Positions 8,701-24,687 of a DNA stretch of 36,471 bases are shown here, one piece after another. This stretch comes from a bacterium. Lineage in GTDB: Bacteria > Patescibacteriota > Patescibacteriia > JACQRZ01. A program made the translations under genes and the position numbers. The DNA lies in contig JAHFJA010000011.1 in the NCBI GenBank assembly GCA_023246095.1, positions 1-36,471 on the forward strand, read 5' to 3'. The first letter of the stretch is position 1, and every line of letters begins with the position of its first letter. The notes beneath the pieces are model-generated. The model was not told the origin of the DNA, ran no database searches, and saw nothing but the letters and a program-made list of their open reading frames with translations.

Positions 8701-11427
8701 TTATACCAGTCTTTTTCGCTGTTGCTCCATGCGTACCAATTCATCTTGGTAATTTGCGATTTTGAGATTCATTTCTTGAACAATATTTTCAGGTGCTTTG
8801 GCGAGAAATTCCTGGTTTGATAATTGAGTGTTGGTACGGCCGATTAATGCTTCAATATTTGCAATCTCCTTATCAAGTCGGGTCTTCTCTTCTTCGATCT
8901 TCATTGAGCTCAATGGGATGAACATTTCTATATCCTCAACTTGCATAAATAAAGCACTGGATGGGCGCTCCCCAATTTCTTGAATGGTAACATTTTTTGC
9001 ATGAGTAAGGCGAGATATAGTATTGATGTGGGGCGCAATGAATGCACTTCGATGTGGGGTATAGAGAATGACTTCAATTTCTTCTCCTGCGGGAATGTGA
9101 TTCTCAGCACGTCCATTTCGTATCGTCTGGATGACTTGCTGAATTAATCCAAAATCTTTTTCTACCTGTTCGTTGATTGCTGTGGGATTTGCTTGTGGCC
9201 ATGCGCGTACCATCAAAAGGGATGGTCGTGATGGTTTTACATCAGGAAATGATGGCAGTGCAAGACGATAGATCTCTTCGGTGACAAACGGCACGATTGG
9301 GTGCCAGAGTACAAGAAGCACTTCAAGGATCGAAAGTAATAATGTACGTTTCGCTCCTTCAACTTTGCTGACCTCGATATACCAGTCTGCAAAAACATCC
9401 CATGTGAACACACGGAGAAGTTCAGCAGCTCGAGAAAATTCATATTGATCAATCGAAGCGGAGACTTCAATGATGAGTCGGTTGAGTTTACTGATGATCC
9501 ATAAGTCAGCAAGAGTATAATCCCCTTCTTTGTCATGGGAGTTGGCTGTGAACGTCAATACATACCTACTGATATTCCATAACTTGTTTACAAAATTTCG
9601 GTAGCTTTCAATTTTATCTTCAGAAAGACGAACATTGTTTCCTGGTGTCACGCCAATGAGAAGACTGAGGCGCAATGCATCAGTTCCGTATTTTGCAATC
9701 ATATCTAATGGATCAATCGCTGTTTCTTCGCGTGATTTACTCATCTTTCGCCCGTCCTTGTCTAGCACCATCCCATGGAGGTACACCACTTTAAAGGGTA
9801 CTTCACCAAGAGCGTATTCTGTCATTAAAATCATGCGTGCGACCCAGAAGAAGATAATATCCCACATGGTCTCTAAAACCGTAGTGGGGTGAAATGTGGC
9901 AAGGTCACCTTTTTTAATAATTTTTCCGTCCTTGTATTCGATATTGTCTGGCCACCCAAGAGTGCTAAACGTCCACATGCCGGAGGAAAACCATGTATCA
10001 AGGGTATCTTCCTCGTGGGTGAGATTGGTATTATTACACTTTGGACATTTCAATGGATTTTCGATACTCACAATAGTTTCACCACATCCGCCGTCTTTAG
10101 TGAGACAATACGATACAGGGATCTGATGGCCAAACCAAATTTGACGAGAGATGCACCAGTCGTGAAGATTTTCCATCCATTGAAAATATTGTTTGTCGAA
10201 TCGTTCAGGGATGATTTGGATTTCTTTTGACCTCACTGCTCGTAACGCCATTTCTTTGAGAGATTCATCTCTGCCGGCGACTTTTTTATTGACGTCAATA
10301 AACCATTGAAGTGAAGTGAGTGGTTCGATGATTGTGTCACAACGATAACATAGACCAACCGTTGAAGTGTGCGATTCTTGTTTTTCTAAAAATCCGGCTT
10401 GCTGGAGAGCAAGTCCGACTGCTTCACGCGCAGCAAATCTCTCCATGCCTTCAAATGACTGTATTGCGCCAACATCATATCCTTCTTTTCTTAGTGCATC
10501 AAAATTAAGATTTCCTTCGTCGTTGATAATGCGCAAAACACCGAGCCCGTATTTTTTTCCGATTTCAAAATCATTAGGATCATGTGCAGGGGTGATTTTA
10601 AGCGCACCTGTACCAAACGTCATGTCTACGTACTCATCGGCAATGATAGGAATCTCGCGATTGGAAAGAGGCAACACAATAGCTCCTCCAATATATTGTT
10701 TGTAACGATCATCATTTGGATTTACTGCGATAGCAACATCGCCAAACATTGTTTCTGGTCGAGTGGTTGCGACAGTGATAGATGTGTCACTATTTTTGAT
10801 GGGATATTTAATATAATAAAATGCGCCTTCGCGATCAGTGTGCTCAACTTCATCATCCGCCAGTGTAGACATACAACGAGGACACCAGTTCACGATGCGC
10901 GTTCCTCGGTAGATGAGCCCATCATCGTACATTTTTACAAACATCGTCCGTACTGCGCGCGTCATGGTGGGTTCGAGAGTGTATCTTTCTCTGCTCCAAT
11001 CACAACTTGCACCAAGGAGTCGTCCTTGTCTGCCAATATCACTGCGCGATTGTTCCACATAATCAGACACCCGTTCAAGAAATTTTTCGCGACCTAGATC
11101 ATGGCGCGTGATACCTTCTTTTGCAAGAATCTTTTCTACTTTATTGGTGCTGGCGATAGACGCATGATCGGTGCCAGGAAGCCATAATGTTTTATACCCT
11201 TTCATCCGATGATAGCGAATCATGAGATCCTGCAAAAAATATCCGAGTGCGTGACCTGTGTGCAGTTTTCCGGTCGCGTTGGGTGGTGGCATGATAATAC
11301 AATAAGGTTCGGTCGCATCAGGATACGCATCAGGATTGAAGAGACCCGAATCCATCCATGTTTTGTAGATGCGATCTTCGACTGTTTGTGGCTCGTACGC
11401 CTTGGGAAGGATGTCAGAATTATCCAT
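8701..11427 (-). CDS. valS: valyl-tRNA synthetase
   Basis: MPPPNATGKLHTGHALG (HIGH), GRKMSKS, editing domain, C-terminal coiled coil; start at MDNSDILPKAYEP preferred. Confidence 0.95.
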   Translation of the reverse strand: MDNSDILPKAYEPQTVEDRIYKTWMDSGLFNPDAYPDATEPYCIIMPPPNATGKLHTGHALGYFLQDLMIRYHRMKGYKTLWLPGTDHASIASTNKVEKILAKEGITRHDLGREKFLERVSDYVEQSRSDIGRQGRLLGASCDWSRERYTLEPTMTRAVRTMFVKMYDDGLIYRGTRIVNWCPRCMSTLADDEVEHTDREGAFYYIKYPIKNSDTSITVATTRPETMFGDVAIAVNPNDDRYKQYIGGAIVLPLSNREIPIIADEYVDMTFGTGALKITPAHDPNDFEIGKKYGLGVLRIINDEGNLNFDALRKEGYDVGAIQSFEGMERFAAREAVGLALQQAGFLEKQESHTSTVGLCYRCDTIIEPLTSLQWFIDVNKKVAGRDESLKEMALRAVRSKEIQIIPERFDKQYFQWMENLHDWCISRQIWFGHQIPVSYCLTKDGGCGETIVSIENPLKCPKCNNTNLTHEEDTLDTWFSSGMWTFSTLGWPDNIEYKDGKIIKKGDLATFHPTTVLETMWDIIFFWVARMILMTEYALGEVPFKVVYLHGMVLDKDGRKMSKSREETAIDPLDMIAKYGTDALRLSLLIGVTPGNNVRLSEDKIESYRNFVNKLWNISRYVLTFTANSHDKEGDYTLADLWIISKLNRLIIEVSASIDQYEFSRAAELLRVFTWDVFADWYIEVSKVEGAKRTLLLSILEVLLVLWHPIVPFVTEEIYRLALPSFPDVKPSRPSLLMVRAWPQANPTAINEQVEKDFGLIQQVIQTIRNGRAENHIPAGEEIEVILYTPHRSAFIAPHINTISRLTHAKNVTIQEIGERPSSALFMQVEDIEMFIPLSSMKIEEEKTRLDKEIANIEALIGRTNTQLSNQEFLAKAPENIVQEMNLKIANYQDELVRMEQQRKRLV

Positions 11428-11537
11428 AGAAAATAAAGTAAGAATATAGGTACATAGTACCAATTCGCTAGCAGACAAGCAAATTCCCTTTATATTATGA
11501 GAAAAACGACGTATTTATGGAAACTGACGTAATATTC

Positions 11538-11845: not shown

Positions 11846-11889
11846 ATGGATCCGAAACAACTAATGTTGTCTAGGATCCTATTTATTTT
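11846..11889. terminator. intrinsic terminator
   Basis: GGATCC-gaa-ACAAC-TAAT-GTTGT-cta-GGATCC followed by TATTTATTTT. Confidence 0.7.
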
Positions 11890-12616
11890 GCAAATTTTTC
11901 TTGGCGAGTTCAAAGATGATTCCTAGTGTCTTTGCCAAAGTAGAGCTTTCAATAATAACGGAATTCATTTTTCCATCAAAGGTAACGAGGATAATTTTAT
12001 TATCGACGACCATTACTTCTGCGTGAAAATTAGAATATTCTGGTGGAAGTTTGAAAGAGTTTGTGATGATATCGCTGGGGTCAAGTTCACCTGATACAAT
12101 GTAGTCAAATACTGTTTTTGACTTCCTCAATGCTTCTTTAAGTGTTTTGGTGTCTTCGGTAGAAATAATTTGCTCTGCTGCAACAAGGTCGGAGATTGCT
12201 ATCATTTTTTTTGGCTTAGATAACTCGATTTCCTCCAAGATAGCCTTAATCCCCTCTTTTCCTTCAAACATCTTCACTACTGGTCGTTCTCCATGTGCTT
12301 TAAGTTTGAGTTCAGGCAAGACGCGGTTAAGATCGCTGATCTTTTCTTTCATTTCCTGTTGTTTGCGCTCAGCATAAGAAAGCAGTTTGTCGGGATCTTC
12401 AGATACATAGTATTTCTTTTTTCCTTTCATCAAGCTGGACATCAGCCCTCTGTTGGTGAGGGTCTCAATAGCAACGTATGTCGCTTGTCGAGAGAGCTTT
12501 GTCCGTTTCGTAAGGTCGATAACTGTACCGGGGCCCTGCTCTAAAGAAGCGATGTATGTTTTCGTTTCGCTTTCTACAAAACCCAGTGAGTGAAGGATGT
12601 GGGAGATGTGTTGCAT
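11879..12616 (-). CDS. TrmB-family transcriptional regulator
   Basis: N-terminal winged HTH (LGFVESETKTYIASLEQGPGTVIDLTKRTKLSRQATYVAIETLTNRGLM), C-terminal PLD-like effector domain. Confidence 0.8.
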   Translation of the reverse strand: MQHISHILHSLGFVESETKTYIASLEQGPGTVIDLTKRTKLSRQATYVAIETLTNRGLMSSLMKGKKKYYVSEDPDKLLSYAERKQQEMKEKISDLNRVLPELKLKAHGERPVVKMFEGKEGIKAILEEIELSKPKKMIAISDLVAAEQIISTEDTKTLKEALRKSKTVFDYIVSGELDPSDIITNSFKLPPEYSNFHAEVMVVDNKIILVTFDGKMNSVIIESSTLAKTLGIIFELAKKNLQNK

Positions 12617-12721: not shown

Positions 12722-12798
12722 GCGCGTATAGCTCAGTCGGTTAGAGCAGTGATCTTATAAGTCACAGGTCGGTGGTTCAAGTCCACCTACGCGCACCA
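12722..12798 (+). tRNA. tRNA-Ile(UAU), CCA encoded
   Basis: GCGCGTA/TACGCGC acceptor, GCTC/GAGC D-stem, GTGAT-CTTATAA-GTCAC anticodon arm (anticodon TAT), GGTGG-TTCAAGT-CCACC T-arm, ACCA end. Confidence 0.93.
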
Positions 12799-14955: not shown

Positions 14956-15402
14956 ATGCTTAAATCAAAAAAAACTGTTGTTGTGATTTTAGTTGCAGCT
15001 TTCCTTTCTGGTCTTGGTGTTGTGGATGCAAAGGCTGAAGACATCATTGACAGTAAGGCTACAGTAGTGGTTGAAAAAATTGCAAGTTTGCCGGATAATC
15101 CGAAGGCCTTGAATAAAAGCATCAATAATCGATATAAAAAACAAATCGCACAATTAGTGATAAAGGATTATGTTTTTACAAAGTATGGATTCAGTACTAA
15201 TAAGGGGATCGAAGTTACTATAGAGAATTTTAAAAAGGCTCTTACGGAATTGATCTTAGTTGCGGCCGACATGAAATTTGGTAACAATGATGGGGTTGCA
15301 ACACCCGATGAAGTAGACTCAATGATTGCATCTTGCGGTGGAAACCCAGGATTTGAACAGTTAATAGATATTTCTAAGAATTATTCAGTTGAATTTAAAT
15401 AA
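14956..15402 (+). CDS. small secreted protein (148 aa), unknown function
   Basis: MLKSKKTVVVILVAAFLSGLGVVDAKAED signal peptide; AAAAGGAG SD; stop codon overlaps the first parS palindrome. Confidence 0.75.
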   Translation: MLKSKKTVVVILVAAFLSGLGVVDAKAEDIIDSKATVVVEKIASLPDNPKALNKSINNRYKKQIAQLVIKDYVFTKYGFSTNKGIEVTIENFKKALTELILVAADMKFGNNDGVATPDEVDSMIASCGGNPGFEQLIDISKNYSVEFK

Positions 15403-15424
15403 ATTGTTCCACGTGGAACAATTT
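15401..15424. promoter_or_regulatory. parS: parS site 1 (core 15405-15420)
   Basis: AAATTGTTCCACGTGGAACAATTT perfect palindrome; core equals the TGTTNCACGTGNAACA consensus. Confidence 0.93.
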
Positions 15425-15455
15425 GGAAAGTAAAATTATAAAATCGTCGTAAAAT

Positions 15456-15491
15456 AAAGGATATCTCAATCAGGTATCCTTTAATGTTTTC
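15456..15491 (+). terminator. intrinsic terminator of 14956-15402
   Basis: AAAGGATA-N11-TATCCTTT then AATGTTTT, between parS 1 and 2. Confidence 0.55.
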
Positions 15492-15523
15492 ATGATTTCC
15501 TAAATCTAAAGGCATTTTGATAC

Positions 15524-15549
15524 AAAATTGTTCCACGTGGAACAATTTT
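15524..15549. promoter_or_regulatory. parS: parS site 2 (core 15529-15544)
   Basis: AAAATTGTTCCACGTGGAACAATTTT perfect palindrome. Confidence 0.93.
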
Positions 15550-15639
15550 TGGCTCTGAATACGTACTAAGTCGAAGTCGAAAAATAGTAACATGCTGAAT
15601 TCCAATGATAAATATACAAACTCGGCAAATTAATTTCAC

Positions 15640-15667
15640 TCAAATTGTTCCACGTGGAACAATTTGA
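15640..15667. promoter_or_regulatory. parS: parS site 3 (core 15646-15661)
   Basis: TCAAATTGTTCCACGTGGAACAATTTGA 28-bp perfect palindrome. Confidence 0.93.
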
Positions 15668-15702
15668 ACATTTTGAGAAGTAAAAACCCTATAAAATAAC
15701 AA

Positions 15703-15729
15703 AAGCTTCCGAATATTTATCGGAAGCTT
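15703..15729 (-). terminator. intrinsic terminator of 15786-16364 (minus)
   Basis: AAGCTTCCGA-N7-TCGGAAGCTT, followed on the minus strand by TTGTTATTTT. Confidence 0.55.
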
Positions 15730-15754
15730 GGCGAGTATTTAAAATATTACGTGT

Positions 15755-15778
15755 AAATTGTTCCACGTGGAACAATTT
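15755..15778. promoter_or_regulatory. parS: parS site 4 (core 15759-15774)
   Basis: AAATTGTTCCACGTGGAACAATTT perfect palindrome. Confidence 0.93.
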
Positions 15779-15785
15779 GGAGCTC

Positions 15786-16364
15786 TTATTTAAAAAGAGA
15801 TCCATAATGATATAGTTCCATTAAACGTGCTGTCTCGTTTGCATTGATTTCTCTTGCCATCATAAGGTGGAATGTTCGCCATTGGGCGCAACTCTTTTTT
15901 TCGGTGGGGGTATACGCATATCTATAGATTACACCATAGTAACAAGCAAATTGTACATGGGCGGGCACAGATATAGGATTAAGCTCAAACACTTTATGGA
16001 GATGTGCTGGCACTAAACTGTATTGCCGTGTCATGAGACAGGTATGTGCCATCATCAAATAGTCGTTTTCTCCGTTAGCGCTAACTTTTGTGAAGTTTGC
16101 AACGTTTTGAAGTGAATGACTGATAAGACCTTTCTTTGAGAAGGCGATTACTTTCTGTTGAAGCGGACACAGTTTGGTTGGAAGTTTCTTGGAGGTGAGT
16201 CCATCGCACGCACGAGAAACAAGTACAGGGTTAATTTTTTCAATATTGTATTTTTTTCTCTTATAGCCTCTATTGATCTTAAAATCTGCAATACGGTCAA
16301 CTAGAGTAATGAATGTTTTAATGATTTCAATGAACAAAATAATAATTGGGTACATGAAACGCAT
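15786..16364 (-). CDS. hypothetical protein with N-terminal TM, flanked by parS sites
   Basis: AAAGGAGG SD before MRFMYPIIILFIEIIKTF; minus promoter TTGCAA-N17-TATATT at 16410-16438. Confidence 0.65.
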   Translation of the reverse strand: MRFMYPIIILFIEIIKTFITLVDRIADFKINRGYKRKKYNIEKINPVLVSRACDGLTSKKLPTKLCPLQQKVIAFSKKGLISHSLQNVANFTKVSANGENDYLMMAHTCLMTRQYSLVPAHLHKVFELNPISVPAHVQFACYYGVIYRYAYTPTEKKSCAQWRTFHLMMAREINANETARLMELYHYGSLFK

Positions 16365-16441
16365 CGTGAGCACCTCCTTTATATACTCTTAGATAAACTA
16401 CTTATTTCAAATATACAGTGAGATAGGCAAGATTGCAAAAA

Positions 16442-16457
16442 TGTTCCACGTGGAACA
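16442..16457. promoter_or_regulatory. parS: parS site 5 (core only)
   Basis: TGTTCCACGTGGAACA, 16-bp perfect palindrome, flanks not symmetric. Confidence 0.9.
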
Positions 16458-16589
16458 ATATGCGTCGCACAATATTCTGAGTATAAAGAAATTATTATAT
16501 TTGGGGGGATTTTGTGCGTTTCAGACACACTCAAGTTGTCTATGCTATACTATAGATACCATTTCGCTTTCTATTTTTTACACAATCGT

Positions 16590-17147
16590 ATGTCAGAACA
16601 AGCCCTTCGAGGGGGCACCGCACTCATTGATCCCCTCACGATCCTTTCTCATCTTGATATTCATGACGGAGACACTGTCGCCGATCTTGGGTGTGGCGGC
16701 GGCGGACATTTTGTGGGACCTCTTGCAAAGGCCGTGGGTGCGAAGGGAAAGGTTTATGCCGTAGATATACAGAAAAACGTGCTAAAACTTGTCGAGGGAA
16801 AGATGAGACAGGAACACATTTTGAATGTTATTCCGGTTTGGTCTGATTTAGAAAGGGGAGGGATTGCTGATATTCCATCGGGTTCGTGCGACTTGAGCGT
16901 CCTTATAAATATACTGTTTCAAAACACAAAACACGACCGCATTGTACAAGAGGCAAGTCGCATGATAAAGTCGATGGGTCGCGTCATGGTCATTGATTGG
17001 AAGACCTCCGGTTCTCCATTTGGACCCCCTTCAGATCGTCGCGTTTCAGCGCAACAAGTGAAAGATATTGCTCAGGTTTTGAACTTATCGCTTTTGGAAG
17101 AATTCGACGCAGGACCTTATCATTACGGACTTATTTTCAAGAAATAA
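16590..17147 (+). CDS. class I SAM-dependent methyltransferase (UbiE-like)
   Basis: DTVADLGCGGGGHFVGPLAKAVGAKGKVYAVDIQ; ATGCTATACT extended -10 at 16543-16551. Confidence 0.82.
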   Translation: MSEQALRGGTALIDPLTILSHLDIHDGDTVADLGCGGGGHFVGPLAKAVGAKGKVYAVDIQKNVLKLVEGKMRQEHILNVIPVWSDLERGGIADIPSGSCDLSVLINILFQNTKHDRIVQEASRMIKSMGRVMVIDWKTSGSPFGPPSDRRVSAQQVKDIAQVLNLSLLEEFDAGPYHYGLIFKK

Positions 17148-17159
17148 CAGTATACAAGT

Positions 17160-17570
17160 ATGATTGCACCCCATTTGTATGATTTTCATTATTGGTTTTC
17201 TTCTCGCCCGTTCCCTTTAAGTAACAGAGGGGTATATATTTTGCTCTTTATTTTTGTTGGAATGATTGTTGCGGATATTGTTCTGCGAATAATTGCACGG
17301 AAAAAGAGGAAAACGAGAGATGTACTCACTAAACGCATTGTTTCGCGCGTTTGCATCTGTCTTGAAACAATGTCAATTTTTGGGTTAATTCTCCTATTTT
17401 TTGCATTTGAGGGTATTCCTTTGCTTGGGGCGCGCTATTTCCTTCTTGTATGGGGGATAGGTTTGTTGGTGTGGGTATTATCAATCGCACATGAATCATA
17501 CGTTCGCAACCCCGCGAAGCGCGCTGCGGCAATCAAAAAAGGTGAGTTTTCCAAATACTTCAAAAAATAA
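17160..17570 (+). CDS. hypothetical integral membrane protein
   Basis: 136 aa, three hydrophobic segments. Confidence 0.65.
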   Translation: MIAPHLYDFHYWFSSRPFPLSNRGVYILLFIFVGMIVADIVLRIIARKKRKTRDVLTKRIVSRVCICLETMSIFGLILLFFAFEGIPLLGARYFLLVWGIGLLVWVLSIAHESYVRNPAKRAAAIKKGEFSKYFKK

Positions 17571-17937
17571 CGGTTCATCATTGCTTCGAAAGAAGGTTGG
17601 CGTATTTGGTGAACAGCTAGCGTGTGAATTTCTTGAGCGAAAAGGATACGATATTCTTATTCGCAATTTTTGTGTTCGAGGAGGGGAAATAGATATCATC
17701 GCGCGAAGGGAACAAGACTTGATTGTTGTCGAAGTGAAAACGCGAACTTCAACAGTATATGGGTTTGCCGAAGAGGCGGTCGACAGGAACAAAAGAAACA
17801 GTATGAATAAAGCGCTATCGGCCTATCATGCGCCATTTGCTTTTCGATATATTCGGTTTGACATTATAGCGATTGATATTGATACGCATAGTAGCTCCGC
17901 AAAAGTTAGGCATTTAAAAAATATTATCTTCGATTAG
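17491..17937 (+). CDS. yraN: UPF0102/YraN family endonuclease-like protein
   Basis: GEQLACEFLERKGYDILIRNFCVRGGEIDIIARREQDLIVVEVKTRT; true start may be GTG 17542. Confidence 0.9.
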   Translation: MNHTFATPRSALRQSKKVSFPNTSKNNGSSLLRKKVGVFGEQLACEFLERKGYDILIRNFCVRGGEIDIIARREQDLIVVEVKTRTSTVYGFAEEAVDRNKRNSMNKALSAYHAPFAFRYIRFDIIAIDIDTHSSSAKVRHLKNIIFD

Positions 17938-18014: not shown

Positions 18015-19190
18015 ATGACATATAGTACTATTCGAAACTACGGATCCGGAGCCATCATTGCAAGTCTTGTGTTTGCTCTGGTATTAGGGTTTACCAACAT
18101 AGTAAATGCGGGAATATTAAGTGGAGTAAGCGACACTATGACGCGCTTGCGGTTGAATCAAAGCGCAGACCATTCTATTGTTTTCACTCTTCCTGGTGGA
18201 ATCAACTGGGACTCTACCGGTGGTAACGACGACATAATTTTTGATTTTCCAGAGGCTGCTACCGATTTTGCTGAAAGTGGAACATGGCAAACGTCTGACT
18301 TTACCGCCAATGACGGTAGTTTGTTAACAGTAAGTGATATTACGGTGAGTGCGGGTTCACTAACGTATCCCACATGTGGAACGGGTGTTGTTGTAGCTGT
18401 CGATACCACAAATTTAAAATTTGGATTTAGGCGGTGCACCGGCGCTAGCGCAGACGCTGCCGCGGTTACTATTGGTATACTGGGAGCATCGGGAGGAACA
18501 GGCACTCTTTCGAACGGTACAGCGACAGGATCAAAAGCAGTCGCTATCTCCATGACCGATGAGGGGGTGACTGATGCTCATACGGGTAATTTTGCTGTGT
18601 CACTCGTTGATGACGATAGCGCTTCTATAACGGCAAGCATCACACCAGCACTGAGTTTTGATATCGATACAGCAACTTCGCACATAGAAGTAAGTGGAAC
18701 TCCTACACCCTACTCTGTTGCAATGGGAACGTTAACTCCGGGCGTTGTAAAAACTTCTGACGATTCGACTATTAATTCAATCTTTCTTGATTTAGGGACT
18801 AACGCGTCAGTCGGAGCGGTGGTAACATTGATGGGTGCTAATGGGGGGCTTAAAAGTGTCGCCACAAATCACACTATTACTACTTCCTACGGTGGAAGTG
18901 CCGTCGATCTCAATGCGCAACCAGAAGGTTTTGGGGTTTGCGTAAAATCAGCTACTGCTTCGGAAGGTGCTCTGACTGCTGTTGCGCCGTATAATGGGAG
19001 TTGCAACGCAACTACGCACAATATTGGTGGAATTGATACTACTACTGCCCGCAGTATTATCACAACAACGAATGCCCCTGCTGTCGGTGGGGATGTTGAG
19101 ATAATGCTCAAAGCAAAGGCTCAAGCAATAACCCCTGCTGCTGTTGATTATTCTGAAACATTGACCTTTATTGCAACAGGTACATTCTAG
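18015..19190 (+). CDS. secreted surface protein, WxL-like/beta-sandwich paralog 1
   Basis: signal peptide; SDTMTRLRLNQSADHSIVFT module; C-terminus DYSETLTFIATGTF shared with 20224-21354. Confidence 0.75.
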   Translation: MTYSTIRNYGSGAIIASLVFALVLGFTNIVNAGILSGVSDTMTRLRLNQSADHSIVFTLPGGINWDSTGGNDDIIFDFPEAATDFAESGTWQTSDFTANDGSLLTVSDITVSAGSLTYPTCGTGVVVAVDTTNLKFGFRRCTGASADAAAVTIGILGASGGTGTLSNGTATGSKAVAISMTDEGVTDAHTGNFAVSLVDDDSASITASITPALSFDIDTATSHIEVSGTPTPYSVAMGTLTPGVVKTSDDSTINSIFLDLGTNASVGAVVTLMGANGGLKSVATNHTITTSYGGSAVDLNAQPEGFGVCVKSATASEGALTAVAPYNGSCNATTHNIGGIDTTTARSIITTTNAPAVGGDVEIMLKAKAQAITPAAVDYSETLTFIATGTF

Positions 19191-19205
19191 TACTCCGCAA
19201 TTTAA

Positions 19206-20153
19206 ATGATAACGACGCGTATTGTTATGAAAAAGTACGCTCTATTTGTTGGGGCTTTATTTATTCTCCCTTTGGTTTTTTTTGCACCCCGCGCTCATGC
19301 ATTGCAATTATCGCCAACTATTTTTGATATTTCTGCAAAACCAGGTCAAACGATTGTAAAATCAGTTCGTCTTGGAAATGAAACAAAAGAAGATTTAACA
19401 TTGACCTACCAAACAGGTATTTTCGAAGCAGCTCCGGAAGGTAATGGAGTACCAAGACTTCTACCGGCGCCTAAAGATATAAATTCGATTGCTAATTGGA
19501 TTTCAGTTACAACACCACAAATAACGTTGCGGCCTGGTGAAAAGGTAGATGCGCCGTTTACTATCACTATTCCAGAAAATGCAGAACCAGGAGGACATTA
19601 TGCATGGATTGCCTGGAATGAAGCTCCTGGAAAAACCGACGGTACTGGTGTTGCAATATCGTGCGGGATTGCAACACAAATTCTTTTACGAGTTGATGGT
19701 GATGCGAAAGAAGGATTAATCCTTCGGAGTTTTAGTACAAAAGATGGAAAAACAAATTTTGAAAAATTGCCAGTATCGTTTGTTGCCACTATTTATAACG
19801 ATGGGAACGTACATGAAAAACCGCGCGGTGAGGTGGTTATAAAAAATATGTTAGGCTCCACGGTTGGAAAGCTTCCTTTTAATGATGTAAAAGATACCGG
19901 TAACATATTACCAAAACAAGATCGTAGTTATAATGTTGAATGGAACAATGGAATTGCTTTTGGAAAATACACGGCACAGTTGAATGCACAGTATGCTGAT
20001 GGAAAAACTATATCCGGAGAGGTACATTTTTGGGTACTCCCAAAAGTCCTATTTGCGGTATGGTTATTAATTATTACTATTGTGTCTTTCATAATCATTA
20101 TGGCAGTAGTGCAAGCCATAAAGAAAAAAAATAAGAGGATTGTGACTAAGTAA
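19206..20153 (+). CDS. DUF916-like (WxLIP-type) anchored surface protein
   Basis: signal peptide, LQLSPTIFDISAKPGQTIVKSVRLGNETKEDLTL, C-terminal TM plus KKKNKR; ATG 19230 also possible. Confidence 0.65.
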   Translation: MITTRIVMKKYALFVGALFILPLVFFAPRAHALQLSPTIFDISAKPGQTIVKSVRLGNETKEDLTLTYQTGIFEAAPEGNGVPRLLPAPKDINSIANWISVTTPQITLRPGEKVDAPFTITIPENAEPGGHYAWIAWNEAPGKTDGTGVAISCGIATQILLRVDGDAKEGLILRSFSTKDGKTNFEKLPVSFVATIYNDGNVHEKPRGEVVIKNMLGSTVGKLPFNDVKDTGNILPKQDRSYNVEWNNGIAFGKYTAQLNAQYADGKTISGEVHFWVLPKVLFAVWLLIITIVSFIIIMAVVQAIKKKNKRIVTK

Positions 20154-20223
20154 TATATTTTTTACCAAGAGAGTAAATTTTGATTGTTTAGAGCTGGTAA
20201 AGGGTGCTATAATAATTTTAATT

Positions 20224-21354
20224 ATGCATCGATCAATTTTTCATCGTGGAGTATCCGCGTTTATATTTATTCTTCTGGTAATTTTTGCTTACGGAAATAT
20301 TTTGGATACACAAGCCTTGTCGGTAACACAAAGAAAAGATATTCTCTCTCGATTGAAAGTAGGCACCCTTTCAAATCATACCATTGAGTTTACCGCGATT
20401 AATGGGGTGGCAGTTGGAGAGACAGTAACAGTGTTATTTCCTATTGGTTTTTCCATTCCTGGTGCTCTTGATTATACTGACGTTGATGTGTCGTATGGTC
20501 CTTTTACTGGAACGGAAAATGAATTAGCTATTGCTGCGGCGGCTGGTGGGGGAGCGTGGGGTGCATCGTTTACCGGGCAGACACTGACTCTTACGGCAGG
20601 AACAGTCGCGATACCAGCAGGTTCAAGGATCGCAGTTGAAGTAGGAACGAACGCGACGATAGGTACTGTTGGAGATTTGCAGATTACAAATCCAGCCATA
20701 GCAGGTGAATACGTGTTAATAATTGGAGGTACATTTGGCGGTGATGGGGAAATCGCTGTCCCTATTATAAATGATGATCAGGCAGGTGCTGTTGCTGCGG
20801 TGAGCCCTATGATGGTGTTTGATCTCGATATAGGAACCGCGGTAGGAGAAAGTACGCCACCGTACACGTTTGATCTGGGAACTTTAACTGCGGGACAAGT
20901 GGTGAGCTCTGGTACTGGTATTCCTGAACGTCCACGTATAATGATGGAATTAAAAACAACAGCGGCAGGAGGTGCTATTGTTACCATCGAAGGTATAAAT
21001 GGTGGAATCAAAAGTGCATCGCAAAATCATATCATTACTACAACTGATAGTGGTAGCGCAGTAACATTGGATGGTAGTACTGAAGGTTTTGGTGCGTGTG
21101 TAGCTTCTGTATCTGCTATTTCGGGAACTATTGAAGGGGTAGCTCCCTATAATGGAGCATGTAGTATCTCAAGTCATGAAGTGGGAGGTATTACTACCGC
21201 GCCACGTACTATTGTTGATACCGCCAATGGCCCTGCGCTTGGAACCGATAACAACAGCGCTCAAATATTTTTGAAAACATCAATTACGCCGACTACTCCG
21301 GCGGCAAATGATTATTCAGAGATTATTTCATTTGTTGCGACCGGTACTTTTTAG
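20224..21354 (+). CDS. secreted surface protein, paralog 2
   Basis: RKDILSRLKVGTLSNHTIEFT module, C-terminus DYSEIISFVATGTF; GTGCTATAAT extended -10 at 20205-20213 makes it nearly leaderless. Confidence 0.75.
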   Translation: MHRSIFHRGVSAFIFILLVIFAYGNILDTQALSVTQRKDILSRLKVGTLSNHTIEFTAINGVAVGETVTVLFPIGFSIPGALDYTDVDVSYGPFTGTENELAIAAAAGGGAWGASFTGQTLTLTAGTVAIPAGSRIAVEVGTNATIGTVGDLQITNPAIAGEYVLIIGGTFGGDGEIAVPIINDDQAGAVAAVSPMMVFDLDIGTAVGESTPPYTFDLGTLTAGQVVSSGTGIPERPRIMMELKTTAAGGAIVTIEGINGGIKSASQNHIITTTDSGSAVTLDGSTEGFGACVASVSAISGTIEGVAPYNGACSISSHEVGGITTAPRTIVDTANGPALGTDNNSAQIFLKTSITPTTPAANDYSEIISFVATGTF

Positions 21355-21396
21355 TGCCAGAAATATATTAGTAGGAAACTAAATTGCTTTTTCAAT

Positions 21397-24300
21397 ATGA
21401 AATCAAAAAATTATTTCATTTCTGCATTTTTTTCAGGCGCATCGCTGGCAATTTTGTTGATACTATTTTTTCCACTCAATTTATTTGCGGCATCGTTAGC
21501 ATCAATGAGCGATACTCTGAGCTCACAAAAGGCGGGAGAACTTTCTAACCATCGTATCGCGTTTACGAGTCCAAGCGGAATGTCTTCGGGTACTATCGAG
21601 GTAGATCTCAGCTCGGTAGTTAGTACAACAGGAAGTGTGAACGAAACAGATATTGATTTATCGTATGGGTTGAGTGGTAGTGAAACTTCAGCCGCACTTA
21701 CACCGACGGCCTCAGCAGGTACGTGGGGTGCCGTGGTCAACTCGTTGACGAAAAAACTTACCTTAACATTTCCTCTTGTAACGTGTGGTGTCTCTCCTTG
21801 TGGTGTCCCTATCGTACCAGGAAATAAAGTAATCATTAAAATAGGTACGAACGCTACGGGGGGCGATGCACAAATGACAAATGCAGCAGTGGGAAATAGT
21901 AAGTTAGTGAGGATAGATGCGGGGACCGACAGTGGTACTCTTGCGGTCGTCTTGGTAGACAGCGGATCTATAGGGGTAACGAGTGATGCAACGAGTGGCG
22001 CAACAGGACCAGCTTCACCTACTGGGTTGGGTGCTACATTGTTCAATTCATCACAGGCGTCTCTTTCGTGGACTGACAATGCAACAAATGAATCTTCTTT
22101 TACTATTGAACGCAGCATCAATGGAGGTACATTTGCTGTACTGACTACCGTAGGGGCAAATGTGAATACTTTTTTAGATAGTAATGTAGGCGCGGGAAAC
22201 TCATATTCATACCGAGTACTTGCTTCCAATAGTACAGGAAATTCTGCGTATACCAATTCAGCAACTGTATCGATTCCTGCTGCCGGTGCAGTGGAGGTTG
22301 GGGGGAGCGGAACACTGTTGCCATCGGGAACTACAGGTAGTGGAAGCGGTGCGAGTACAGGAGGGTCAGCGCCGAGTGATGCCGGTTTTACATCGACTCC
22401 AACTCCTTGCACGGTAAGTTGTCAGCTTGGTTGTCCATGTAGTGGTACTACTACAGGAGGAGGATCAAGTTCACCGGCCCCCACGGATAGTGGAACAGGA
22501 ACGGCAGGTGGAACAACGACAGGCAGTGGAACAGGAACTTCTGGGGGTACGACAGGAACAGGTACAACTGGTGGGACTACTGGCAGCGGAGCAGGTACGT
22601 CAGGTGGCACAAGTACTACTTTGGGAGGAGATGCACTTGCGGGAGTACCCTCCATATGTGTGGTGTCAGGTTCTTTAGGTTGTACAAGTAATACTACTCG
22701 CCCACCTTCTCAATCATGTTTGGAAGCGCCTGTTATTGAAGCAGTAACAAAAGAGGCCCAAATTGATCTTGAGTGCCATGGGAGTTCTCCTGCAGAGTTA
22801 TTGTTTGTTATTGAGCGAAGTGTCTCCGGATCTCCCTTTGTTCAAATTGGGAGTACTCCAGCGAACCTTACAACTTTTAGTGATACGAGTGTAGATCCGA
22901 GTACTACGTATTCATATCGAGCTCGTGCAACCAATGCTGACTGTCAGTCTCCTTATAGTAATGTTTCAAGCGCCAGGACATTTGCTAGTGGAGAATCGGG
23001 TGGAGCAATTTCGGGCGATACAGGCGGCGGAGGTGGTGGCGCAGGCGGCGGAGGGGGAGGCGGTTCAGGTGGCGGCGGAGGTGGTGGCGCAGGCGGCGGA
23101 GGGGGAGGCGGTTCAGGTGGCGGAGGTGGTGGTGGTGGTGGTGGTTCAGGGACTCCATTGTATGGTACTGCTTTTTTTGGCGACCCATCATCGTGGGGTA
23201 TGACTGAAGTGAATGGAGCAAGTTCTCCCTATGCGAAGGGTCAATTTTGTGCGCGCAAATTGACTGCCATAACTCCGTGTGTTAAGACCGCAGGGTTGCC
23301 AGTGGCAGTATCCCAAATGAACATGAGTGTAGGTGGCACTGTATATCCATTATCGTTTGATACTGCTAAACAATGCTATACGGGTACCATACCTATCCCC
23401 CCTGCATTAGGTGTATATCCATTAACACTTAATGCCACCTATGTAGATGGAACGACGACGACCGTTAACTCAGTAATTTCAGTTCGTTCAACCTGCCGTT
23501 TTTTCATAGAGGCGACAGTAACAGAAGACGCCGTTAAAAAAGTTATTGAAAAAGTTCAAATTGCCGCAACTAATCTCAACGACTTAGCCGATTCGTTTGG
23601 TCGAGGCATGGGAGGCGGAGGATCAGGTGGTGGCTTGGGTAGTGGCCGAATAGGTGAGTTGATCGGACAGAGTCAAGGACTCCTGCAAACATTGTCGATA
23701 TTTGCAGCAGGGAGTCTCTTGCTGCTCGTACCTTCGTATTTGGGAAATGTATCGAGTGTCGTGAGATATGCTGCGCAGGGGTTCTCAAATCTTTTCTCAC
23801 TGTTTGGGTATAAGAAGAAGCGACGCAAGCGATGGGGTGTTGTGTATGACGCATTTAGCAAGGAACCTGAAGCGTTGGCAATTGTACGTTTGTACGATGT
23901 CACTACTAATAAGGTCATAGAAACACAAGTAACTGACCAAACAGGACGATTCAGCTTCTTCACGCAGCCTGGTACATATTCCCTCAGTGTAACTAAAGTA
24001 CCCTTTGTGTATCCTTCAGGAGTGGTAAGGGGACGAACTGATGGTAAATATGCAAATGTTTATCGAGGTGAAAATATTGTTATCCGCAATGATGATGATG
24101 AAATTTCCGTTAGTATCCCCATTGACCCCAAGAGGAGGGAGCGTATCAAAGAGGGTTCATTTATGGATGCATTCTTGGATGTACTTGAACGTGTTGGGCC
24201 ATTCGTGGCAGTGCTCAGTTTTGCAATCAGTATCACGTTAGTTCTCTATACACCAAGTGTACTCAACGTTGCGATCTTCATCATCAATACGATACTAATA

Positions 24301-24687
24301 CTACTACAATTCTTGGTAGTTCCTCATTTGAGGAAATCGTGGGGAATTGTATTTGATGATGCGACATTGATGCCTCTCTCATTAGCCACCATTTCTCTTT
24401 TTGATGCAAATAGTAATAAGTTATTACGATCTCGATTGTCAGATTATCAAGGACGATTTAATTTTCTTGCACCTCCGGGACACTATAAAATATTGGTGAC
24501 ACGCCCCAACTATCAGTTCCCTTCTGCAAATCACAAGATAAAACGATACAAATATTTGTATTATGGAACTGAGGTTGAAGTGAAAAAAGAAAATGAAATC
24601 GTGAGGGTAAATATTCCAATGCATAAACGCAATGTTACACCAGGAAGTGGAGAGGCTCAGGAGGTTGCCAATCCAGAAATCTCGTGA
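21397..24687 (+). CDS. large multidomain surface protein: SDTLS..SNH module, two Fn3 domains, Gly-rich stalk, TMs, two CarboxypepD_reg-like domains
   Basis: 1096 aa; SLSWTDNATNESSFTIERS...YSYRV and ELLFVIERS...YSYRA Fn3 signatures; KRWGVVYDAFSKEPEALAIVRLYD...TGRFSFFTQPGTYSLSV and SWGIVFDDATLMPLSLATISLFD...QGRFNFLAPPGHYKILV repeats. Confidence 0.8.
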   Translation: MKSKNYFISAFFSGASLAILLILFFPLNLFAASLASMSDTLSSQKAGELSNHRIAFTSPSGMSSGTIEVDLSSVVSTTGSVNETDIDLSYGLSGSETSAALTPTASAGTWGAVVNSLTKKLTLTFPLVTCGVSPCGVPIVPGNKVIIKIGTNATGGDAQMTNAAVGNSKLVRIDAGTDSGTLAVVLVDSGSIGVTSDATSGATGPASPTGLGATLFNSSQASLSWTDNATNESSFTIERSINGGTFAVLTTVGANVNTFLDSNVGAGNSYSYRVLASNSTGNSAYTNSATVSIPAAGAVEVGGSGTLLPSGTTGSGSGASTGGSAPSDAGFTSTPTPCTVSCQLGCPCSGTTTGGGSSSPAPTDSGTGTAGGTTTGSGTGTSGGTTGTGTTGGTTGSGAGTSGGTSTTLGGDALAGVPSICVVSGSLGCTSNTTRPPSQSCLEAPVIEAVTKEAQIDLECHGSSPAELLFVIERSVSGSPFVQIGSTPANLTTFSDTSVDPSTTYSYRARATNADCQSPYSNVSSARTFASGESGGAISGDTGGGGGGAGGGGGGGSGGGGGGGAGGGGGGGSGGGGGGGGGGSGTPLYGTAFFGDPSSWGMTEVNGASSPYAKGQFCARKLTAITPCVKTAGLPVAVSQMNMSVGGTVYPLSFDTAKQCYTGTIPIPPALGVYPLTLNATYVDGTTTTVNSVISVRSTCRFFIEATVTEDAVKKVIEKVQIAATNLNDLADSFGRGMGGGGSGGGLGSGRIGELIGQSQGLLQTLSIFAAGSLLLLVPSYLGNVSSVVRYAAQGFSNLFSLFGYKKKRRKRWGVVYDAFSKEPEALAIVRLYDVTTNKVIETQVTDQTGRFSFFTQPGTYSLSVTKVPFVYPSGVVRGRTDGKYANVYRGENIVIRNDDDEISVSIPIDPKRRERIKEGSFMDAFLDVLERVGPFVAVLSFAISITLVLYTPSVLNVAIFIINTILILLQFLVVPHLRKSWGIVFDDATLMPLSLATISLFDANSNKLLRSRLSDYQGRFNFLAPPGHYKILVTRPNYQFPSANHKIKRYKYLYYGTEVEVKKENEIVRVNIPMHKRNVTPGSGEAQEVANPEIS
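23023..23118 (+). repeat. two perfect 48-bp tandem copies in the Gly-rich stalk
   Basis: GGCGGCGGAGGTGGTGGCGCAGGCGGCGGAGGGGGAGGCGGTTCAGGT x2, then a degenerate GGT-rich third copy. Confidence 0.93.

Follow-up and report, generated by a model that had tools for sequence, protein, structure and literature searches.

A five-copy parS cluster, very probably the chromosomal centromere, in the draft genome of a Patescibacterium

Genes and parS sites of the locus

The analysed stretch of DNA (the window, 36,471 nucleotides) corresponds to contig C11 in a draft genome of 985,568 bp, which consists of 40 contigs and is 94.8% complete. Judged from its gene content, the cluster locus is chromosomal: it is surrounded by valS and by tyrS-, rnc-, nusA-, and ftsH-like genes, these names having been read off translations, and family scans covered the immediate neighbours of the cluster. 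The conserved left-hand neighbours are the gene for valyl-tRNA synthetase (valS; 8701-11478, minus strand), which served as the anchor for finding the syntenic region in relatives, and that for a TrmB-type regulator (11879-12616, minus strand; 68% in G001, a genome of the same genus, and 64% in G005, a genome of the same family). On the right lie conserved genes for a class I methyltransferase (16587-17147, plus strand; 63% in G001 and 39% in G005) and a YraN/UPF0102 family protein (17491-17937, plus strand). Two small convergent ORFs occupy the middle of the locus, one of 148 aa (14956-15402, plus strand) that begins like a signal peptide and has a good ribosome-binding site, and one of 195 aa (15786-16373, minus strand). 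Domain and family scans found no family match for either; at the syntenic loci neither G001 nor G005 has the 148-aa ORF, and tblastn with the 195-aa ORF gave no match in either locus. An Rfam scan of the window returned one tRNA and nothing else. This gene (12722-12798) encodes a tRNA-Ile with the anticodon TAT, which reads ATA directly; such an anticodon is less usual in bacteria, where a modified CAT anticodon is mostly used. Farther to the right, 18015-24687 encodes a series of proteins of secreted or surface type. Among them are two related proteins of about 380 aa (more paralogues are encoded near dnaA on contig C3, loci L084 and L085), one with a weak resemblance to WxL-interacting proteins, and a glycine/serine-rich membrane protein of 1096 aa.

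An exact-match search of the window located five identical 16-mers, TGTTCCACGTGGAACA, at 15405, 15529, 15646, 15759, and 16442, as an earlier note on this DNA had described. The copy-to-copy spacings are 124, 117, 113, and 683 bp. Base composition leads one to expect approximately 6e-6 exact 16-mers per window and 2e-4 per genome. When up to three mismatches were allowed, the window contained 10 matches, compared with 2.0 in shuffled sequences (highest shuffle, 6). In the whole 985,568-bp genome, TGTTNCACGTGNAACA had five exact matches, all at the window cluster, and a reversed control pattern had none, so the confinement of the 16-mer to one locus was upheld.

Copies 1 to 4 fall within the gap between the convergent ORFs and, as the earlier note had observed, are embedded in longer perfect palindromes, while copy 5 consists of the core only. 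Copy 1 (15401-15424, core 15405-15420) was delimited by the exact match and the palindrome length; it forms a perfect palindrome of 24 bp, and the left arm of this palindrome overlaps the stop codon, TAA (15400-15402), of the small ORF for a secreted protein. Copies 2 (15524-15549, core 15529-15544; 26 bp) and 3 (15640-15667, core 15646-15661; 28 bp) are intergenic, copy 4 (15755-15778, core 15759-15774; 24 bp) lies immediately past the stop of the minus-strand ORF, which separates it from copy 5, and copy 5 (16442-16457; 16 bp) is situated in the divergent intergenic gap that precedes the methyltransferase gene. Outside the arms, the 36-bp flanks are just 22-44% identical among copies; because so little is shared beyond the arms, the five sites are not one large tandem duplication. 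Two terminator-like hairpins distinct from parS were also found, between copies 1 and 2 (15455-15483) and between copies 3 and 4 (15703-15729).

Partition proteins and position relative to the origin

The window contains neither parA nor parB; both genes are on contig C26. The genome-wide search for them, which had been set beforehand as a check capable of refuting the centromere reading, found a single ParB (PF02195, E 5e-33) adjoining a single ParA (PF13614, E 3e-62). The ParB scores above the TIGR00180 cut-off; the nucleoid-occlusion model TIGR04285 is top-scoring yet below its own cut-off. The closest solved structures are ParB and Spo0J chains, and the CTPase motifs GERRLRA and ENIQR are present. 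Residues were numbered with an alignment row for Caulobacter ParB that was used for numbering only and whose GKSR segment fits the numbering in PMC7383237. On this numbering the protein has R173, N178, T179, R184, and G201. The parS-reading positions of Caulobacter ParB have been established experimentally, and Noc carries Q173/K179/K184/R201 at these positions (PMC7383237); in the alignment against these residues, the protein has the parS-type R173/G201 and not the Q173/R201 of Noc. An SMC protein with Walker A, LSGGE signature, and Walker B is also encoded, and the ScpB gene lies beside ftsZ. Every ParABS-SMC part that was searched for (ParA, ParB, SMC, and ScpB) is encoded in the genome.

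In this draft genome parS, parAB, and dnaA are on separate contigs (C11, C26, and C3, respectively), and proximity of the cluster to the origin is therefore taken from relatives. In the 14 class members whose dnaA and parS share a contig, the two are 3-107 kb apart (median 17 kb), and in 13 they are within 50 kb of each other. G016 is nearly closed, as a 928-kb contig; its parS sites are at 792-793 kb and its dnaA is at 810 kb, and the GC-skew minimum, where the skew changes sign, lies between the two at approximately 800 kb, with the opposite change near 300 kb. In G023, G071, and G020, the sign change also occurs no more than about 15 kb from parS. Within the window, GC skew shifts near the cluster without changing sign. 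In many bacteria parAB is found next to parS or dnaA, an arrangement that is usual and not required. The sites described here are neither near nor inside the parAB operon, which is on another contig, and parAB lies away from both parS and dnaA in the class relatives G016, G023, G043, G051, and G086. The parAB-dnaA distance is 169-314 kb in the last four of these; in G016, provided that its contig closes, it is approximately 180 kb along the circular chromosome. Taken together, the distances and the GC skew in the class point to a centromere at the origin and a parAB operon elsewhere.

Sites and arms in relatives

The syntenic locus, with valS and the TrmB-type regulator on one side and the methyltransferase and yraN on the other, was recovered in G001, where it holds 8 parS sites, and in G005, where it holds 8 exact sites and 3 with one central mismatch. 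The 11 parS-type sites of G005 occupy 0.7 kb of a divergent intergenic gap (contig C9, locus L086, 6025-6698), and the three one-mismatch sites have CATGTG or CACATG at the centre. Copy 5 and its right flank (16438-16483, 46 bp) are 93.5% conserved in G001, which identifies copy 5 as an orthologous site; no sequence orthologous to copies 1 to 4 was found at the G001 locus, the sites themselves apart. From these comparisons, copies 1 to 4 seem to come and go rapidly, whereas copy 5 is orthologous in the sister species, so that site number and placement turn over. Elsewhere, five parS sites in G188 (contig C3, 41545-41752) have an exact 48-bp period and form a tandem array, in contrast to the irregular clusters seen in other genomes.

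Among the ten other genomes of the family, exact parS was found in G001 and G005 only; the remaining eight (G002, G003, G004, and G006-G010) keep ParB and ScpB without a recognisable parS. A search allowing two mismatches gave counts at the control level in these eight genomes with the exception of G003, which had 5 matches versus 0 in the control and has two near-miss scattered sites. To look for a centromere that might have replaced parS, a near-complete scan of G006 was made de novo over 913 kb, and it did not find clustered repeated palindromes; one candidate, TAAACCGGTTTA, was rejected because its four occurrences are scattered. Repeated palindromes near dnaA or valS in other parS-less genomes included none that were parS-like. 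The residues with which ParB reads parS do not cleanly split parS-bearing from parS-less genomes. In the wider samples, exact parS was present in 49 of 95 genomes of the class, 92 of which have ParB, and the exact motif was present in 48 of 380 genomes of the phylum. Loss of recognisable parS with ParB retained makes centromere turnover testable inside one family.

The earlier note had also offered the extended arms as a possible lineage-specific specificity determinant, a suggestion that was not sustained. The 24-mer AAATTGTTCCACGTGGAACAATTT is spread over many phyla, with at least 119 stretches containing it, so the arm sequence is not specific to a lineage, and the arms at the sites of G005 reach 10 bp and vary in sequence from site to site, yet remain self-complementary (P<=2e-4 for its 11 sites alone). 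Most of the G005 sites have complementary arms of 6-10 bp. In the class, the first base flanking parS is A/T at 98% and the second at 94%, and the palindrome extends by a mean of 2.87 pairs, compared with 1.76 when right arms were swapped within genomes (54 sites, 11 loci, P<=2e-4). For the 173 sites of the genome_contigs set, from which the search 24-mers had been removed, the extension was 2.60 versus 1.78 pairs (P<=2e-4). The first position outside the core held an A/T or T/A pair in 178 cases and A/A or T/T in 51. Outside Patescibacteria the coupling is weaker (25 sites, P<=0.028), and 59 24-mers there extend by 1.05 versus 0.41 pairs. In patescibacterial regions, the extension of ordinary palindromes is close to what chance would give, and few of them are as long as parS. 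L020 (at 1501), L012 (at 2114), and L156 (at 7113) each have a lone parS site embedded in a palindrome of 42 bp or more, the longest reaching at least 48 bp.

Because arms co-vary within genomes despite differing in sequence, they are not simply a lineage-specific sequence determinant, and coupling between left and right arms is not predicted for a symmetric dimer that makes independent contacts. The arms may have a mutational origin (template switching at palindromes) or may play a structural part (as a cruciform or hairpin); since the window's four long arms have the same sequence, its own sites do not separate these explanations. Mirror-image arms are a general tendency of parS, and their effect is probably limited to local DNA structure or the maintenance of sites, if they have one. 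It is a speculative and rather unlikely extension of this that natural parS sits in longer palindromes whose arm sequence is free and whose flank self-complementarity is itself maintained, through a hairpin or cruciform or through a replication-linked template switch. Arm co-variation, if confirmed, would be a property of parS that recognition by protein alone does not predict. A literature search found no published report of parS arm symmetry; the search was small and is weak evidence of novelty.

Interpretation and comparison with known systems

The cluster is very probably the chromosomal centromere of this Patescibacterium, with five ParB loading sites close to the origin. The reading of the sites as a chromosomal parS cluster, made in the earlier note, is backed by the presence of ParAB, the uniqueness of the 16-mer in the genome, synteny in two relatives, and origin proximity in the class.

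It was considered whether the palindromes are instead bidirectional intrinsic terminators of the small convergent ORFs, with an incidental or secondary match to parS. Copies 1 and 4 do stand directly at the ends of the two ORFs, and hairpins resembling terminators were called by a scan at copies 1, 3, and 5, but such a call is the trivial outcome of a palindrome flanked by A/T. The exact 16-mer is, moreover, invariant and unique in the genome, and separate terminator-like hairpins are already available at 15455-15483 and 15703-15729. All 11 sites of G005 lie between divergent gene starts (5888, minus strand, and 6879, plus strand), where terminators are not expected, which argues against a terminator function; this explanation is accordingly very unlikely.

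A mobile, REP- or MITE-like palindromic repeat in which the parS motif occurs by chance would account for near-identical 24-bp units at short spacing and for site numbers that differ among relatives (5, 8, and 11). It is nevertheless improbable in the extreme, as there is a single locus per genome, near the origin, nothing is shared beyond the arms, and the arms of G005 vary between copies. The same slight probability is given to binding by a Noc-type nucleoid occlusion factor in place of ParB: the NCBIfam Noc model scores highest for the ParB protein, though below its cut-off, whereas the sole ParB/Noc-family protein of the genome adjoins ParA, it has R173/G201 rather than the Q173/R201 of Noc (PMC7383237), and the sites are parS and not dispersed NBS.

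For a centromere of this kind, established ParB biology suggests that the single, CTP-dependent ParB would load at parS as a clamp and then slide into the neighbouring DNA. By the ParABS mechanism, the ParA ATPase would move ParB apart, and ParB would be expected to recruit SMC-ScpB and so start alignment of the chromosome arms. Having several sites in a cluster probably increases loading or provides redundancy. The genome would then represent a reduced Patescibacterium with a complete, apparently canonical ParABS-SMC system whose centromere lies at the origin, apart from parAB; no paper joining parS, ParB, and Patescibacteria was found in the paper library searched.

The window cluster belongs to the already known chromosomal parS type. 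Its 16-bp palindrome, TGTTNCACGTGNAACA, is identical to that of Bacillus subtilis Spo0J/parS, Caulobacter crescentus ParB/parS, and Pseudomonas aeruginosa parS1-4. As in known chromosomal ParABS systems, the sites are clustered near the origin (here by way of relatives) and are accompanied by a single ParA and ParB and by SMC-ScpB, and the ParB has CTPase motifs and parS-reading residues. The system differs from these in that parAB is unlinked from parS and dnaA in contiguous relatives, in the mirror-symmetric arms, and in the patchy occurrence or loss of parS in close relatives that keep ParB. With Noc/NBS it shares the protein superfamily and a similar 16-bp palindrome, whereas its site and protein residues are those of ParB-parS and only one member of the family is encoded. 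Other Patescibacteria (Moraniibacteriota and Parcubacteria; L148, L161, L163, L172, L202, and L229) likewise have many exact parS sites packed into 1-2 kb and frequently flanked by A/T palindromic arms; the number of parS-type sites there reaches 14, in L229, compared with 5 in the window.
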